Shown here: positions 7,994 through 15,588 of the stretch, one piece after another
Layout of the letters: every line of letters begins with the position of its first letter
How positions within the stretch are numbered: position 1 is the stretch's first letter
Source of the DNA: Bacillota bacterium
GTDB taxonomy: Bacteria > Bacillota > Sulfobacillia > JAJYWN01 > JAJZPE01
Reading direction: 5' to 3'
Assembly: GCA_021787335.1 (NCBI GenBank)
Contig: JAJYMC010000014.1
Location: 35,401-99,400 of the forward strand
Length of the DNA stretch: 64,000 nucleotides
The notes under the pieces: model-generated
What the model was told of the DNA's origin: nothing
What the model saw: only the letters and a program-made list of their open reading frames with translations
Database searches by the model: none
Made by a program: the position numbers and the translations under genes

Positions 7994-8158
7994 ATGTTTA
8001 ACGGCCTGTTCATCGCCATGCCCAGCCGGAAGACCCCCGAAGGCACCTTCCGCGACGTGGCTCATCCCATCACCGCCGAGGCCCGGGAGATGATCCAGGA
8101 CGCCGTCATCCGGGCCTACGGGGAAGGCGTTGGCGGGCAGGTCGCCAAAGCGCAATAG
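7994..8158 (+). pseudogene. spoVG: spoVG remnant lacking the N-terminal half
   Basis: Codons from 7994 read [19 protein letters not shown], followed by [20 protein letters not shown] and a short tail to TAG at 8156. This is the conserved C-terminal half of SpoVG (B. subtilis: [23 protein letters not shown]-like). The N-terminal RNA-binding half (about 40 residues, normally MKITDVRVR...) is absent; upstream DNA does not encode it in any frame. There is no ribosome site before the 7994 ATG. SpoVG normally sits directly before glmU, so this marks the original locus, now separated from glmU by 6 kb. Confidence 0.8.
8054..8094 (+). repeat. 41-bp repeat, copy 1 (within spoVG remnant)
   Basis: The 41 bases encoding [14 protein letters not shown] of SpoVG recur at 10812-10852 with one mismatch (T/C at the ninth base). 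Similarity stops abruptly on both sides of the unit. Confidence 0.85.
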
Positions 8159-8293: not shown

Positions 8294-8452
8294 ATGATGG
8301 CCAGTCTACGTCAGTGGCTGGCCGTTGTGGCCTTGGTCGGCCTTATCGTGGCCAGTCTGTCCCCAGTCAAGGTCGAAGCGGCTGGAATCCGCGTCCTGTG
8401 CGACGGCGTGGCCGTATCATTTGACACTCCGCCGCAGGTAATCGCGGGGTGA
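8294..8452 (+). pseudogene. 5' part of the stalk/FecR gene, cut off by an in-frame TGA
   Basis: An ATG at 8294 (or 8297) opens a frame with a clear signal peptide (RQWLAVVALVGLIVASLSPV, then VEA-A cleavage region) followed by the first half of a copper-amine-oxidase-like repeat (DGVAVSFDTPPQVIAG). TGA occurs at 8450-8452, exactly where the second repeat of the same protein has Arg: PPQVVGGRTMVPLR there, PPQVIAG-stop-TMIPVR here. A single CGA-to-TGA change explains it. The remainder of the gene continues in the same frame at 8453. Without this segment the rest of the protein has no export signal. Confidence 0.75.
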
Positions 8453-8455
8453 ACG

Positions 8456-10753
8456 ATGATCCCCGTCAGGAAGGTCTCTGAGGCTCTGGGTGCGACCGTA
8501 GGTTGGGACGATCGGACGAAGAGTGCGATCATCACCCTTGACACCCGAATCGTCAAGGTGACCCTCGATTCGACCACCGCCTACGTGAACGGTGAGCCAT
8601 CCACCCTCGACGTGCCGCCGCAGGTCGTCGGTGGTCGCACCATGGTGCCACTTCGCTTCATCGGTGAGGCGCTGTTGGCGAAGATCGGATGGCACGGTCC
8701 AACACAGACCGTTTCGGTGTCCTCTCCCGGCAACGTGATGACCATCTCCAGCGGTGAGGGGACGGTCGAGGTCTTGAAGCTGGGGAGTAAAGCCTGGGAG
8801 TGGAAGTCCGTCGGAGCGATGGAGAAGGGCGAACGCTATCTCATCGCCGGCGAACGAGTCCGCACCGGTGAGCAAAGCACAGCCATTCTGACTTTGAGCG
8901 ATGGAACGTCAGTTCGTGTGGACCCCGGCTCCGAGTTATACGTGACCTCCCTGAGACAGGACAAAGCCACCCGAGTTCGTACGGTTGAACTCGAAGCCTT
9001 CAAGGGATCGGTCTGGCTCGAGGTGGCCAAGCAGATAAAGGGTTCCAGCATCAAGCTCAAGTCTGGATCCAAGACCTACACGGCCTACGGCACGGTGTTC
9101 GGGGTTGAAGCCGGCGATAACCCGCAGCTATCGGTAATCGCCGGGACAGTCCTCGCCGACCCCTCGTCGGGGCAGGGTCCGACGGTCGCCGTCCCGACGG
9201 GGACGGTCATGGCGTCGGGCGCCGACGCGCCGGCCCTCATGACTGATGCGCAGCGGGCCGCTCTCTCGGGTATGTCCGATTGGGCCATGAACGCCATCAC
9301 CGACACCGCCAAGGACACCAGCCTGGCCCAGATAGCGGCGGCCGAGGCGGTCAAGTCCCTTCCGGCTTCGGAGTCGGCGGCGCTGCAGGCCAATGCCCAA
9401 GTCCTCCAGACCGCCCAGGAGCTGTCACTGGCTTCCCAGTTCGAACTCCGTCAGTCGGCCCCCATCCTGGGCGAGGCCCCGCCGGCCGACCTCCAAAAGC
9501 TTGTCGTTCAGGCCCAACAACGGGTCCAGGACGTCGTGACCCAGCCGCCGCCGGCGGCGCAGGGGGTCCTGGGCCAGACCGATACGCAAAGAATCCTTGA
9601 ACTTCAGGCCGCAACTCTGGCCGAGGTCAGACACAACGCCGAGAGTTCGATGGCTGGAGGAGCTGAGGCCCAGCAGATCGCGACGGCCGCGAGCCAGGTC
9701 GAGGGGAAGCTGCCTTCGAACATCAGCCTGCCGCCAGAATTGGTCCCAAGCGTCCCGCTCCCTCAAGGCGTGAAGCCGGCGGACATCCCGATTCCGGCGG
9801 GCGTCAACCTGCCGCCAGGGATGGTTCTGCCGCCGGGCATTCAAATCGACGCCAAGACGTTGCTTCCCGAGGGAGTCGTTCTTCCGCCACAGGCGAACCT
9901 GGCGGCCGGGGCCTCCTTGCCGCCGGGCGTTCAGGTGCCTCCAGGCTTCTCATTGCCGGCAGGGATGACTCTGCCCCGCGACGCGGTCTTACCCCCGGGC
10001 TTCCAGATGCCCGAAGGCATGGCTCTGCCCCCTGGGGTTTCCCTACCGCGAGGCTTTGAGCTGCCGCCGGGCATGTCTCTGCCGAGTGGGGTGCAGCTGC
10101 CGCCAGGGTTCTCGTTGCCAGCCGGAGTCGAGCTGCCGCCAAACATCTCTCTGCCGCCTGGGTTTACGCCTCCTGCGGGGTGGACACCACCCCCCGGGGT
10201 GGCGATGCCTTCGGCCGGTGAGATGCCATCATGGATGAACCTCGACCCAGCGTCGTTGTCCCAGGGCCTCGGACTCGGCAACCTTCCGGCCAGTTTCCAG
10301 GCCGGCGGTCCGGGGTTCACCCCGCCTTCTGGCTGGACTCCGCCCACAGACTACGCCCCGCCACCGGGATGGACCCCACCTCCTGGTTGGGTGCCTCAAG
10401 CGGGTGAGATTCCAGCGGGCTGGACACAGCTTCGAGCGGGTCCGCAGACCTACACCGTCGATTTGCCAGGCGGCTATGCCGCGCCGCCTGGGTGGGCACC
10501 CCTTCCGGGCTGGACTCCGCCGCCCGACTGGACTCCCGTCCCCGGCGAACCGCCTCCGGGATGGTTGCAGGTAGGCACGCCGCCGCAAGACACCTCCACG
10601 GGAACCATGCCTGGAACGGGAATGCCGTCGGGAGGGAGTCCACCGGAAGGAATTCCGCCCGGAGTAATCCCGCCCGGAGTAATCCCGCCTGGAGTAATTC
10701 CACCAGGAGCAATCCCGCCGGGAGGGATTCCACCGCAACCCCCGCCGCCTTAA
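8456..10753 (+). CDS. Cell-surface protein: copper amine oxidase-like domain, FecR domain, Pro-Gly repeats
   Basis: A 765-aa frame continuing the gene begun at 8294. Residues 1-90 complete one copper-amine-oxidase N-terminal-like ('stalk') repeat and contain a second (VNGEPSTLDVPPQVVGGRTM). Residues ~95-250 resemble a FecR domain (ISSGEGTVEVLKLGSKAWEW, VRTGEQSTAILTLSDGTSVR). An Ala/Gln-rich helical part follows (~255-410). The C-terminal 340 residues are low-complexity: first L-P-P-G-x repeats (~420-590), then P-P-G-W-T-P units (~590-715), then I-P-P-G-V tandem units at the end. Such proteins are usually exported and wall-associated. An ATG at 8456 could restart translation after the TGA but the product would lack a signal peptide. 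It is framed by the two spoVG repeats. Confidence 0.75.
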   Translation: MIPVRKVSEALGATVGWDDRTKSAIITLDTRIVKVTLDSTTAYVNGEPSTLDVPPQVVGGRTMVPLRFIGEALLAKIGWHGPTQTVSVSSPGNVMTISSGEGTVEVLKLGSKAWEWKSVGAMEKGERYLIAGERVRTGEQSTAILTLSDGTSVRVDPGSELYVTSLRQDKATRVRTVELEAFKGSVWLEVAKQIKGSSIKLKSGSKTYTAYGTVFGVEAGDNPQLSVIAGTVLADPSSGQGPTVAVPTGTVMASGADAPALMTDAQRAALSGMSDWAMNAITDTAKDTSLAQIAAAEAVKSLPASESAALQANAQVLQTAQELSLASQFELRQSAPILGEAPPADLQKLVVQAQQRVQDVVTQPPPAAQGVLGQTDTQRILELQAATLAEVRHNAESSMAGGAEAQQIATAASQVEGKLPSNISLPPELVPSVPLPQGVKPADIPIPAGVNLPPGMVLPPGIQIDAKTLLPEGVVLPPQANLAAGASLPPGVQVPPGFSLPAGMTLPRDAVLPPGFQMPEGMALPPGVSLPRGFELPPGMSLPSGVQLPPGFSLPAGVELPPNISLPPGFTPPAGWTPPPGVAMPSAGEMPSWMNLDPASLSQGLGLGNLPASFQAGGPGFTPPSGWTPPTDYAPPPGWTPPPGWVPQAGEIPAGWTQLRAGPQTYTVDLPGGYAAPPGWAPLPGWTPPPDWTPVPGEPPPGWLQVGTPPQDTSTGTMPGTGMPSGGSPPEGIPPGVIPPGVIPPGVIPPGAIPPGGIPPQPPPP
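10652..10726 (+). repeat. Five 15-bp tandem repeats encoding I-P-P-G-x
   Basis: Five consecutive 15-bp units of the form ATYCCRCCNGGAGNN encode IPPGV, IPPGV, IPPGV, IPPGA and IPPGG. The first three differ only at third positions. A young slippage-prone minisatellite inside the surface-protein gene, so length variation between strains is expected. Confidence 0.9.
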
Positions 10754-10803: not shown

Positions 10804-10811
10804 TGCGCACC

Positions 10812-10852
10812 GACGTGGCCCATCCCATCACCGCCGAGGCCCGGGAGATGAT
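10812..10852 (+). repeat. 41-bp repeat, copy 2 (second spoVG fragment)
   Basis: Matches 8054-8094 at 40 of 41 positions and, read in the SpoVG frame, encodes [14 protein letters not shown]. No other SpoVG codons surround it, so it is a stray fragment between two terminators. Confidence 0.85.
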
Positions 10853-10865
10853 TCCGGCCGTGACC

Positions 10866-10941: not shown

Positions 10942-11592
10942 TCAGATCTTAATCTGTAGCCAGTAGGTGAACAGGAACTGGAGGCGGCCGATGAACAGAG
11001 AGATACGAGCCATGACGGTGTTGCCGAAGGCGGCGCCCAGGCCGACCATGATGACCCAGCGGCCGAACCAGGCGGGCCACCCGACCAGCTTGTTCTCCCT
11101 CTTCACGGTGAAGAAGAAGTACGAGAGCGCGGTCAGCAGGAAGACCCAAAAGAGGACGTTATTCAGCGTCTGGGTGAAGATGATGCCGCCGCCCTTGGCG
11201 GTGACGGCGAACTTCGAACCGTAGCTGTCCACGACCTGCTTGATCAGGACGGCCGGCTGGAAGGCCAGGGTATAGCCGACGCCGTAGCCGACCCAGAAGG
11301 ACATCGGGTAACGGGCCAGCCAGGACACCTTCGGGAAGTACTGCAGATAGATCATGAGACCGATGATGATGGGGATGAAGTAGATGAACTTCCCGTCTTT
11401 CATGATGTCGGTCTGGATCGTCGGCTTGATGTACTGGTCCCAGTTGCCGACAATCCCGAAGCCGGAGGCCAACCCGACGAAGATGTGCTCGGCCGCGCGG
11501 AAAACCGGGTTCTCGGCCCAGAGGTAGGTCAGGCAGGCGAACGTGGCGATCGCCCCGACCCAAGCGGCCGCAGGAGTCCAAGTCCAAGTCAC
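10942..11592 (-). CDS. Multipass membrane protein, last gene of DUF6754-type operon
   Basis: A 216-aa integral membrane protein with about six hydrophobic segments. The N-terminal AWVGAIATFACLTYLWAENP is followed by a conserved-looking EHIFVGLASGFGIVGNWDQY, then IYFIPIIIGLMIYLQYFPKV, and a late GRWVIMVGLGAAFGNTVMAR. The GTG at 11592 is chosen by GGGAGGTGACATAAA. It is the promoter-distal gene of four minus-strand genes (13983 to 10942), with gaps of 40-56 bp and a Shine-Dalgarno site before each. I know of no function; the conserved context with a DUF6754 protein suggests a membrane complex. Confidence 0.8.
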   Translation of the reverse strand: MTWTWTPAAAWVGAIATFACLTYLWAENPVFRAAEHIFVGLASGFGIVGNWDQYIKPTIQTDIMKDGKFIYFIPIIIGLMIYLQYFPKVSWLARYPMSFWVGYGVGYTLAFQPAVLIKQVVDSYGSKFAVTAKGGGIIFTQTLNNVLFWVFLLTALSYFFFTVKRENKLVGWPAWFGRWVIMVGLGAAFGNTVMARISLFIGRLQFLFTYWLQIKI

Positions 11593-11640
11593 TTTATGTC
11601 ACCTCCCGACGTGAGCTGCGGAAGACGTTCCGCGCGGTGG

Positions 11641-12462
11641 TCAGGCCCTCTTGCGAAGGACATAGCCGATGTTGCCGAGGATGATCAGCAGGATGATCAG
11701 GGCATGGCCCAGGGACTGGGCGTCCATACCCTTGATGGCGCTGCCGGGAGCCTTGCTGAGGAGCTCATACTCCGCGGCGCCGCGCATCCCGGAAAGGATA
11801 CCCGTATACTGCCCGGACTTGACGTACGGCATGGCCCCAGGGGCGGAGACGGCGGTCACGCCGACGCTCATCGGGATTTTCTTCGGCTCGGAGACATACT
11901 GGAGGTAGTCCGCGGTGCCGGGGCTGCCGGTGCTGAGGTCGAAGATCAAGGTGACGCTCGAGGCGTCGAGCTTTTTGACCCGCTCCATCAAGGGCAGATT
12001 GGACAACGGGGTGCCGTTGACGTCCACGCCGGCCGCGGCGGTCCACAGGTCGTCGGTCATCTGGCGGAGGGTGACCGGATTGTTCGGCTTCCAGCCGAGG
12101 TTGACCCAGTCGGTGCCTTCCTTCGCCCCGACTTCCTTAGAAACCAGTTCGGTCCAGTTCTTGGACATCTGGACGCCGTCCTGCCACATGGCGTAGACGA
12201 CGACCTTGACGCCCTTCTTCAGAGCGTGGCGGAAGATGGCGACGGCCATCGGGTCCAGCTCGGGGGCGCTGGAGGGGCCGTAGTCGGCGCCGATCCAGAG
12301 GATATCACCCGGCTTGAGGGCGTCGACCGCGTTGAAGGCGGTCTCACTCTCGGTGCTCGTGCTGAGCGGCAGGCCGAGGGGCTTGATCAGCGGCACGGCG
12401 ATGGCGATGGCGACCAGCAGGTAGATGACCCGCTTGTCAATGCTCATAAGCCGGTCCCACAT
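11641..12462 (-). CDS. Membrane-anchored protein with central soluble domain
   Basis: A 273-aa protein with an N-terminal membrane segment (VIYLLVAIAIAVPLIKPLGL, ~12-31), a soluble region of about 200 residues, and a C-terminal membrane segment (HALIILLIILGNIGYVL, ~252-268) ending in RKRA. The soluble part alternates strands and helices in a Rossmann-like way: KPGDILWIGADYGPSSAPEL, then KKGVKVVVYAMW, then VTLIFDLSTGSPGT. The positive C-terminus suggests both ends are cytoplasmic and the soluble domain extracytoplasmic. The start is the ATG at 12462 behind AAGGAGGTGTAACG. Third gene of the DUF6754-type operon; function unknown. Confidence 0.8.
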   Translation of the reverse strand: MWDRLMSIDKRVIYLLVAIAIAVPLIKPLGLPLSTSTESETAFNAVDALKPGDILWIGADYGPSSAPELDPMAVAIFRHALKKGVKVVVYAMWQDGVQMSKNWTELVSKEVGAKEGTDWVNLGWKPNNPVTLRQMTDDLWTAAAGVDVNGTPLSNLPLMERVKKLDASSVTLIFDLSTGSPGTADYLQYVSEPKKIPMSVGVTAVSAPGAMPYVKSGQYTGILSGMRGAAEYELLSKAPGSAIKGMDAQSLGHALIILLIILGNIGYVLRKRA

Positions 12463-12518
12463 TCTTCGTTACACCTCCTTACAGTGGGCTGAGTGACACG
12501 AGTAACGGGAACCGGCCA

Positions 12519-13154
12519 TCACTTCATCCCAGCCCCGCCGACCCCACCGAGGTGGGCCCGCTCGATTCCGAGCAGGATGCGGAGCACGGTGACGAAAGAA
12601 CCGAGGTAGGCGCCGATGAGGACGGCGCGCATGGCGGCCGTGTTCGGGAAGCGCATGATCCAGTTGGCCCAATCCGGGAAGCCCTTCCAGATGGCCTCGC
12701 CGATGGGGGCCCTACCGAGCATGACGATGGCCGCGGAAACCAGGAGAAGCGACGCCTCCACGGTCCGAACCCGGAAGGCCCGGTAGGCCGCGGAAGCGAT
12801 GTAGAAGGCCAGGAGCGAGAAGATGGTCGAGTCGAGCGACGCCAGGAGGGCGTTGTAGACCCACCGGAAGGTGACGCCCTTGTAACCGTCAATGACGCCG
12901 AGGACGGTGTAGCCCCACATGCAGACGAGCAGCAGGAGGCTGAAGATGTATCCAGCCTTGCGCCGCCTGACGTGGTTGACATGGATCCGGGTCAGGTTGA
13001 TGGCCCCGATGAGGAGGGCAACGGCCTGGCTGATACTCTGCCACTTGTCCATCGAGTTGATCAGTTGCCACTTCTCACCGATGGCGAAGTCATGACCAAA
13101 GATGACGAACAGCCCGGTCAGGATGGTCACGAGCAAGGGCAATTCCTTACGCAC
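12519..13154 (-). CDS. Multipass membrane protein of DUF6754-type operon
   Basis: A 211-aa protein with about six membrane segments, starting at a GTG (13154) preceded by AAGGGGGTGTACG. Segments include LPLLVTILTGLFVIFGHDFA, ISQAVALLIGAINLTRI, GYIFSLLLLVCMWGYTVLGV and a late RAVLIGAYLGSFVTVLRILL. A basic cytoplasmic loop (HVNHVRRRKAG) lies after segment 2. The C-terminus is a short Gly-rich tail. Second gene of the four-gene operon; no enzymatic motif is visible. Confidence 0.8.
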   Translation of the reverse strand: MRKELPLLVTILTGLFVIFGHDFAIGEKWQLINSMDKWQSISQAVALLIGAINLTRIHVNHVRRRKAGYIFSLLLLVCMWGYTVLGVIDGYKGVTFRWVYNALLASLDSTIFSLLAFYIASAAYRAFRVRTVEASLLLVSAAIVMLGRAPIGEAIWKGFPDWANWIMRFPNTAAMRAVLIGAYLGSFVTVLRILLGIERAHLGGVGGAGMK

Positions 13155-13194
13155 TCACGTACACCCCCTTTTCCCTTTGCTGTGCTTCTCGGGC

Positions 13195-13983
13195 TCACTT
13201 CATGATGAAGTTCGTGAGCGGGTTCTTCTTCGGGTCGGCGATGATGTTGGTGACCACCGTCCCGACGACTATCGTCAGGAAGACCAGGATCTTGAACCAG
13301 TCCTCCCCGACGACCGTCCCGAGCAGCACCGGGTTCTTGGAGATATACGCGCTGGCGGCGTAGATCTCTTCGCCGATCAGCGTGTAGTCGCAGGCCGCGA
13401 CGAAGAACGGGAGCTGAGCGGTGGACGTGGTGCCGGCAATCTGGATGGCGCCGATCTGGGCGCCGGCCTCGGCCAGGATCAGGGATTCGGCGTAGAAGTA
13501 GCCGATCATGATGCTGGCCGCCGGTTTCTCGCGGGCGAAGATACCCAGGATGGCCGCGGTGTACCCGAACTGGAAGCCTGACAGGTACCGGACGTCATCC
13601 CCGTTATAGGCGTCCGGGCGACCAGCCTCAAGGTAAGCCTGCTTGATGATTTCCTCGTTCACCGAGTGCACCAGGTAGTTGCGGTTGGTGTTGATGAGCC
13701 GGCAGTCGTACTTGGCGCACAACTGGGCGATGTAACCGAGGGTATTGAAGAAGGCGAAGGTCTCCGGGTCGCTGATACCACCGAGACCGGGGGTGGCGTG
13801 CACCGGGCGGCCCATTTCCGTGGCGCGCCCGATGGACTCCTCGAGGGCTTCCAGACCGGCGATCTTGCGGATCTCGGGGATCTTCATGCCGGCCCGGGCG
13901 CGGGTGATCAGAACGTACGTGACGACACCCAGCGCGACCACGAACCAGAAATCGACAACCATGCCCTTTGTCCAAAGAGCCAC
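13195..13983 (-). CDS. DUF6754-domain membrane protein, first gene of operon
   Basis: A 262-aa protein. N-terminal membrane segment VVDFWFVVALGVVTYVLI, then a soluble region with highly regular motifs: IGRATEMGRPVHATPGLGG, QFGYTAAILGIFAREKPAAS, FYAESLILAEAGAQIGAIQI, AGTTSTAQLPFFVAACDYTL and IGEEIYAASAYISKNP. A C-terminal membrane segment follows. These match my recollection of the uncharacterised DUF6754 family. A GTG at 13983 is preferred because AGGAGGTGC lies eleven bases upstream; an ATG at 13962 lacks a site. It is transcribed divergently from glmU across a 213-bp gap. Confidence 0.82.
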   Translation of the reverse strand: MALWTKGMVVDFWFVVALGVVTYVLITRARAGMKIPEIRKIAGLEALEESIGRATEMGRPVHATPGLGGISDPETFAFFNTLGYIAQLCAKYDCRLINTNRNYLVHSVNEEIIKQAYLEAGRPDAYNGDDVRYLSGFQFGYTAAILGIFAREKPAASIMIGYFYAESLILAEAGAQIGAIQIAGTTSTAQLPFFVAACDYTLIGEEIYAASAYISKNPVLLGTVVGEDWFKILVFLTIVVGTVVTNIIADPKKNPLTNFIMK

Positions 13984-14196: not shown

Positions 14197-15588
14197 GTGC
14201 CGGAAGTCCGGTGCGTGGTCCTGGCCGCGGGCCAGGGGACGAGGATGAAGTCTGAACTGCCGAAGGCGCTGCATCCTTTGGCTGGGCGACCGATGGTCGA
14301 CTGGGTGGTCAGGGCGGCCGAGGCGGCCACCGGCCGGAAGCCTCTCGTCGTCGTCGGCTACCGGCGCGAACTGGTCCAGGCGGAACTCGGCGACCGGGCC
14401 GACTTCGCCATCCAGGAGGAACAACGCGGGACCGGCCACGCCGTCGCCACCGCCGTCTCCGCCCTGGGCGGTTTCCGCGGGACGCTGGTCATCCTCCCCT
14501 GCGACGCGCCCCTCATCTCGCCGGCCACGTTGACCGCCTTCATCGAGGCCCACGAACGCTCGGGGGCCGGGGCGACCATGCTGACCGCCCTTGTCGACGA
14601 CCCGTTCGGTTACGGGCGGGTCCTTCGGGCGCCGGACGGCCACCTTCAGGCCGTCGTCGAAGACCGCGACGCGACGCCTGAGCAGAAAGCGATCCGCGAA
14701 GTGAACACGTCCATCTACTGCTTTGACAGTCAGGCCCTGGGAGAGGCCCTCCCCAGGTTGCGCAACGAGAACGCGCAGCAGGAATACTACCTTCCTGACG
14801 TGCTTGAACTGATTCGAGCGGCCGGTCGCGGCGTCGAGGCCCACCTCACCGACGACCCTGACGAGGTCGCCGGAATCAACAGCCGCCGTCAGCTGGCCCA
14901 GGTCGAGTCGGTGGTGCGGCGGCGGACGATGGAACGGCTGATGGACGAAGGGGTCACCGTGGTCGACCCGGCCAGCACCTTCATCGACGATACGGTCGTG
15001 TTCGGTCGGGATGTCACCGTTCTTCCCTTCACCTTCGTCAGCGGGAAGAGCGAGATCGGACCGGAGTGCCGTCTCGGGCCGGGCGCCGACATCCGCGACT
15101 CGCGCCTGGGGCGGGGCTGCGTCGTCCAGCACTCGGTGGTGGAGGAGAGCGTCGTCGGGAACGACGTGACCATCGGGCCCTTCGCCCACCTGCGCGCCGA
15201 CAACCGAATCGCCGACGGGGTCCGCATCGGGAATTACGCCGAGCTCAAAAACTCCAAGGTCGGTCCGCGGTCGAAGATCTCCCATCATAGTTACATCGGG
15301 GACGCGGACATCGGCGGCGGGGTCAACATCGGGGCCGGCGTGGTGGTCGTCAACTTCGACGGCGTCAGGAAACATCGGACCGAGATCGCCGACGGGGCCT
15401 TCATCGGGTGCAACAACAACCTGGTGGCCCCGCTGAAGGTCGGTCCCGGCGCCTATACGGCGGCGGGCTCGACCCTGACGAAGGACGTCCCGGCCGACGC
15501 CCTGGCCGTGGCCCGTGAGAAACAACAGGTCCACGTCCTCGGTTGGGCCAAGCGACGCAGGGAAAAGGCGGCCGAGGACGAACCCTGA
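14197..15588 (+). CDS. glmU: Bifunctional UDP-GlcNAc pyrophosphorylase / GlcN-1-P acetyltransferase
   Basis: A 463-aa GlmU, supplying UDP-N-acetylglucosamine for peptidoglycan. The N-terminal nucleotidyltransferase carries LAAGQGTRMKSELPK (residues 9-23, UTP/metal site) and GTGHAVATA. The C-terminal half (~255-455) is a left-handed beta-helix of hexapeptide repeats with the acetyltransferase signature RIGNYAELKNSKVG, then SHHSYIGDADIG and NFDG. Length is normal for the family. Start is GTG at 14197 behind TAAGGGG. Normally preceded by spoVG; here the interval has been rebuilt and the upstream neighbour is a divergent membrane operon. prs follows after 39 bp. Confidence 0.96.
   Translation: MPEVRCVVLAAGQGTRMKSELPKALHPLAGRPMVDWVVRAAEAATGRKPLVVVGYRRELVQAELGDRADFAIQEEQRGTGHAVATAVSALGGFRGTLVILPCDAPLISPATLTAFIEAHERSGAGATMLTALVDDPFGYGRVLRAPDGHLQAVVEDRDATPEQKAIREVNTSIYCFDSQALGEALPRLRNENAQQEYYLPDVLELIRAAGRGVEAHLTDDPDEVAGINSRRQLAQVESVVRRRTMERLMDEGVTVVDPASTFIDDTVVFGRDVTVLPFTFVSGKSEIGPECRLGPGADIRDSRLGRGCVVQHSVVEESVVGNDVTIGPFAHLRADNRIADGVRIGNYAELKNSKVGPRSKISHHSYIGDADIGGGVNIGAGVVVVNFDGVRKHRTEIADGAFIGCNNNLVAPLKVGPGAYTAAGSTLTKDVPADALAVAREKQQVHVLGWAKRRREKAAEDEP

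Follow-up and report, generated by a model that had tools for sequence, protein, structure and literature searches.

A four-gene DUF6754 membrane system shared by distant bacterial phyla and its genomic linkage to MutL, E5 and c9

The window (the whole 64,000-nucleotide stretch of Bacillota DNA that was analysed) carries a quartet of consecutive minus-strand genes, A to D, that encode predicted membrane proteins. Their standing as a four-gene unit, the breadth of its distribution, the co-evolution of its members and its genomic linkage to the genes of three further proteins, MutL, E5 and c9, are established. We infer with high confidence that A, B, C and D form one obligate complex, and a functional link between the quartet and MutL-E5 is probable. 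The best overall explanation, which we put forward tentatively, is an ABCD complex that works with MutL-E5-c9 in substrate-specific transport.

The quartet and its chromosomal position

The genes and their surroundings are as follows.

13195..13983 (-): gene A, DUF6754 protein, 262 aa; from PF20539, AlphaFold2 and hydropathy
12519..13154 (-): gene B, 211 aa; about 6 TM helices, without known family
11641..12462 (-): gene C, 273 aa; from AlphaFold2 and topology, without Pfam or PDB sequence relative
10942..11592 (-): gene D, 216 aa; about 5-7 TM helices, without known family
14197..15588 (+): glmU; divergently transcribed, conserved context, outside the system
7994..8158 (+): spoVG 3'-end remnant; context
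~10811..10860 (+): second spoVG 3'-end remnant; shares 92% identity with the first across 50 nt

Read in the order A-B-C-D, the quartet spans 13983 to 10942, and successive genes are separated by 40, 56 and 48 nt. The first-pass annotation described four minus-strand genes with Shine-Dalgarno sites, and all four open reading frames and ribosome-binding sites are indeed seen. Gene A has a GTG start with AGGAGG 11 nt upstream, B a GTG start with the site GGGGGTG, C an ATG start with AAGGAGGTG, and D a GTG start with GGGAGGTGA. Codon-usage gene calling recovers all four, extending A slightly at its start; this recovery and the conservation of the quartet across phyla mark them as genes rather than chance open reading frames.

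Gene A is a full-length member of DUF6754 (PF20539; E 6.7e-95, 317.5 bits against a cut-off of 27, profile positions 11-249 of 257). The annotation had named a member of this family and described the family as uncharacterised, in agreement with Pfam, which gives it no function. The profile searches that it proposed place B, C and D in no Pfam family above cut-off and in none of NCBIfam; members of the B, C and D alignments show scattered weak Pfam matches only, and a PDB sequence search with these alignments gave no noteworthy relative.

The quartet had also been described as an insertion between spoVG and glmU. glmU does adjoin it, but spoVG is not intact in the window: two 3'-end remnants are present, with no intact copy beside the quartet. 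The remnants flank a Cu_amine_oxidN1/FecR gene (8294-10753) that seems to start in a different frame. In a genus relative (L088) the layout is intact spoVG, D-C-B-A, glmU, and an order relative (L092) has the same layout. Because the position is common to both, we regard it as ancestral in the order and reject a recent insertion. Downstream of glmU, the plus strand continues with prs, a ctc-like gene and pth (named by eye). A mobile element or phage origin was likewise rejected, as gene A gave no match to plasmid and phage records.

Conservation and predicted architecture

The neighbourhood survey suggested by the first-pass annotation, with genes in related loci called by a codon-usage script, yielded consistent co-occurrence across distant genomes. 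It comprises 142 complete A-B-C-D quartets in one order and on one strand, with median gaps of 18, 12 and 11.5 nt; some loci of one genome are counted twice, so that distinct quartets are somewhat fewer. The order and strand hold in nearly all related loci. A contig scan returned at least 550 relatives (>550), the best 80 of which come from many phyla. The quartet is found in at least 15 phyla, including Bacillota, Zixibacteria, WOR-3/Stahlbacteria, Latescibacterota, Gemmatimonadota, Planctomycetota and Riflebacteria. Both monoderm and diderm lineages carry it, with an unchanged set of subunits. Scattered single homologues, which would have spoken against a unit, were not seen apart from a few divergent stand-alone C relatives without A, B and D (L174:8570-9487, L175:8994-9947 and L176:8732-9571). 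Those in L175 and L176 lie a few kb from methylmalonyl-CoA mutase- and propionyl-CoA carboxylase-like genes.

The host genome has three quartets (three DUF6754 loci), and gene A is present in 20 of 249 sampled genomes of its own phylum. Within the class it occurs in 24 of 61 genomes at 1 to 27 copies each, and C in 25, namely the same 24 and one with a quartet whose A lies past the contig end (Fisher p 4e-16, which, like the other co-occurrence statistics here, ignores the kinship of genomes). Copy numbers of A and C across class genomes correlate with r 0.996. One relative (G016, which includes L074-L086) has 27 DUF6754 and 29 C-gene matches, and one of its contigs (L075) bears a tandem pair of quartets. 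The pairwise distances of the four proteins are correlated (r 0.68-0.83, against at most 0.08 when permuted), also among paralogues within one genome (0.59-0.76). The idea of a dedicated, undescribed membrane complex in the first-pass annotation is strengthened by these ordered quartets.

Single-chain AlphaFold2 models of A and C each contain a Rossmann-like domain between two TM segments. In A these are TM ~9-30, domain 41-216 and TM 218-250 (pLDDT 94, pTM 0.88), and in C TM ~10-31, domain 37-237 and TM 241-272 (pLDDT 97, pTM 0.91). B, with ~6 helices, and D, with ~5-7, are multipass by hydropathy. The two multipass proteins and the double-anchored one with an outer Rossmann-like domain (C) had been recognised earlier; the second such domain, in A, had been missed. 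The domain of A is predicted to be cytosolic and that of C extracytoplasmic, on the basis of charge patterns and of a signal peptide (by eye) and an FN3-like N-terminal extension that precede the first TM segment of A in other phyla. The extension is called FN3-like from a profile-PDB match only, and single proteins have no Pfam fn3 match.

Fold searches with A return Sir2 (Z 11.8), transhydrogenase dIII (~9.4) and RCK (9.3-9.8, rmsd ~3-4), and with C an SDR at Z ~9.3. These are generic Rossmann matches, and assignment of function from fold was therefore rejected. A and C as paralogues were rejected too, their profiles being unrelated. Pairwise identity is highest in the cytosolic domain of A (53-63%) and lowest in the outer domain of C (33-39%). 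Judged from sequence, a variable exterior and a constant interior would be the pattern expected of variable recognition with a constant partner. The domain of A has near-invariant polar residues at E49, R53, E56, E166, D199, E205 and E206; neither a dinucleotide-binding glycine motif nor a metal or Fe-S motif was seen in A.

Linkage to MutL, E5 and c9, and other neighbours

In many phyla the quartet adjoins genes for MutL (an ASKHA-type ATPase), E5 (a barrel-sandwich/KOW protein) and c9 (a small protein). The first-pass annotation identified the four-gene set and missed this wider unit. The MutL partner (600-640 aa) matches the full PF13941 profile (E 4.8e-120, 401.8 bits against a cut-off of 27). 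The MutL/GlmL family is named after the glutamate mutase accessory protein and is unrelated to mismatch repair. A cross-phylum alignment of MutL shows 60% conservation per column, and a PDB sequence search gave no solved structure among its sequence relatives. E5 combines an RnfC_N-like barrel with a weak KOW match. PADLOC models produced no match for A-D, MutL, E5 or c9, and a defence system was rejected on this ground.

Symbiobacteriales-like genomes have one master locus, c8-A-B-C-D-MutL-E5-c9-MutL-E5, preceded by M20, M55 peptidase, DmpA-like peptidase, DUF4438 and other genes (names partly by eye). For DUF4438 (L004:64-927), no paper was found in the literature searched. The order c9-MutL-E5-A-B-C-D or a similar one is found in Gemmatimonadota, Aegiribacteria, Riflebacteria, Phycisphaerae and others. 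Further MutL-E5 pairs lie outside quartet loci, at L177:6073-9392, L178:7079-9933 and L186:11953-14977, the last of them adjoining histidine kinase-like and response regulator-like genes.

E5 is present in 25 of 25 quartet genomes of the class versus 4 of 36 others (two of the four weakly). Outside the class, 14 of 15 quartet-bearing genomes of other phyla have it, one of the 14 as broken pieces only. Against the overall explanation stand these few quartet-less genomes with E5, as well as the quartet genome G066, which is without it. The numbers of quartets and of E5 genes follow each other only loosely. Genomes of the Bacillota class have 1-27 quartets against 4-11 E5 matches, fragments included (Spearman 0.49), and six non-Bacillota genomes combine 2-6 quartets each with one full-length E5.

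Around the quartets of 49 Bacillota loci that lack the master genes, 16 genes are found on the same strand at a distance of no more than 200 nt. Amide- or ester-hydrolase families account for 9 of these 16, versus 22 of 431 other genes; amidohydrolases, M20/M24 peptidases and beta-lactamase-like hydrolases are common among these close neighbours. This enrichment is a hint only and biased upwards, because the families were chosen after the neighbours were seen. Outside Bacillota the close neighbours are mixed and include polysaccharide-export and capsule genes, with SLBB/Wza-like genes adjoining quartets in WOR-3/Stahlbacteria and Wzi in Latescibacterota. Most quartets are without a same-operon enzyme. 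A constant enzyme partner beside stand-alone quartets was rejected, none being found at the examined loci.

Proposed function and alternatives

In the proposed mechanism, A-D would be subunits of one obligate inner-membrane complex with B and D as its multipass core. C would display a variable Rossmann-like domain outside and A a strongly conserved one inside. A cytosolic unit of MutL, E5 and c9, usually encoded once or a few times and common to all quartets of a cell, would work with the complex. The most likely role would be substrate-specific transport, perhaps the import of small molecules of amide- or peptide-like nature: C would bind the solute outside, B and D would form the path, and A would couple or gate inside with MutL-E5. 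Four features place transport ahead of the other readings: two subunits are multipass, the outer domain is variable, the quartet has expanded in copy number, and hydrolase genes lie nearby. Against it count the missing transporter match by fold or sequence, the generic nature of the Rossmann matches, the biased hydrolase enrichment, the mixed neighbours outside Bacillota and the scarcity of same-operon enzymes. Transport, ATP coupling and substrate class are all inferred, and we hold transport as a tentative assignment that falls short of an even chance.

Comparison with known systems provides partial parallels. No member of the quartet matches a known transporter (fold searches of A and C, profile searches of all four); the first-pass annotation had named a confident structural match of one member to a known transporter, with the others unrelated, as an outcome that would refute its proposal. 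In group II ECF transporters, one common cytosolic ATPase unit serves several separately encoded substrate modules. The likeness to one shared ATPase unit with many modules is proposed from copy number and linkage, not homology. Here, however, the module has four subunits and MutL is ASKHA-type rather than ABC; no member of the B, C and D alignments has a Pfam match to S- or T-component families. At the loci examined, genes for ABC ATPases were seen beside ABCD in L048-L050 only. Trk/Ktr systems place a cytosolic Rossmann-like domain on a membrane path, and the fold of A matches RCK, a generic match that is tied with transhydrogenase dIII and lies below Sir2. In contrast to Trk/Ktr, A is itself membrane-anchored and an extra outer Rossmann subunit (C) is present. 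No RCK_N/TrkA sequence family was found in A, whose only Pfam match above cut-off is DUF6754, and B and D have no TrkH/KtrB-type match. The partner ATPase is a MutL/GlmL member by profile, but its length of 600-640 aa and its linkage to E5, c9 and ABCD set it apart; by inspection, no B12 or glutamate mutase subunits stood out among the neighbours of L004, L047, L051 and L187. No paper on DUF6754 or PF20539 was found in the literature searched, which omits most subscription journals, and searches for MutL and GlmL gave mismatch repair or unrelated papers only. The system of A with B, C, D and MutL-E5-c9 is undescribed in that literature.

Sensing, a possible reading, is nearly as likely as transport. 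C would detect a ligand, B and D would relay the signal, and A would control the MutL-E5 ATPase or another output. The large copy-number expansion, the variable outside and constant inside, the many quartets that stand alone, the FN3-like extension that A carries outside in other phyla and the MutL-E5 pair beside kinase-like and regulator-like genes in L186 are all consistent with a transmembrane sensor. A has no fused output domain, however, no regulator is regularly linked, and two multipass subunits of 5-7 helices each exceed the normal need of a receptor.

An envelope assembly or scaffold role, in which MutL would be an actin-like or FtsA/PilM-like ATPase that organises surface polymers or proteins from the cytosolic face, appears improbable. 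It would suit the FN3-like outer domain, the SLBB/Wza-like and Wzi genes beside quartets and the glmU gene beside the window quartet, but such neighbours are a minority with none seen in Bacillota, E5 and c9 are unlike any known scaffold, and monoderm and diderm lineages share the same subunits. Lowest of the alternatives we place a membrane enzyme, with the conserved polar residues of A as an active site, possibly for redox or amide-bond chemistry, and MutL as a reactivating ATPase, a role that has been proposed for GlmL. The many near-invariant polar residues and Rossmann-like fold of A, the mutase-derived name of the MutL family and the match of E5 to the RnfC N-terminal barrel point this way; the lack of a dinucleotide-binding glycine, metal or Fe-S motif in A does not, and up to 27 diverged copies suit recognition modules better than one enzyme.

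In the widest reading, the system would be a new class of ATP-driven membrane system in bacteria, in which one shared ASKHA-type MutL-E5-c9 unit energises or controls many interchangeable ABCD modules, each with its own outer recognition domain. We regard this as an unlikely outcome. A set that stays together in many phyla, most of them uncultured, and reaches up to ~27 copies in a genome represents a sizeable blank in bacterial physiology, and it is linked to an ATPase-like family that is 60% conserved and without solved structure. The linkage to MutL-E5-c9 makes its function directly testable with a defined set of seven proteins.
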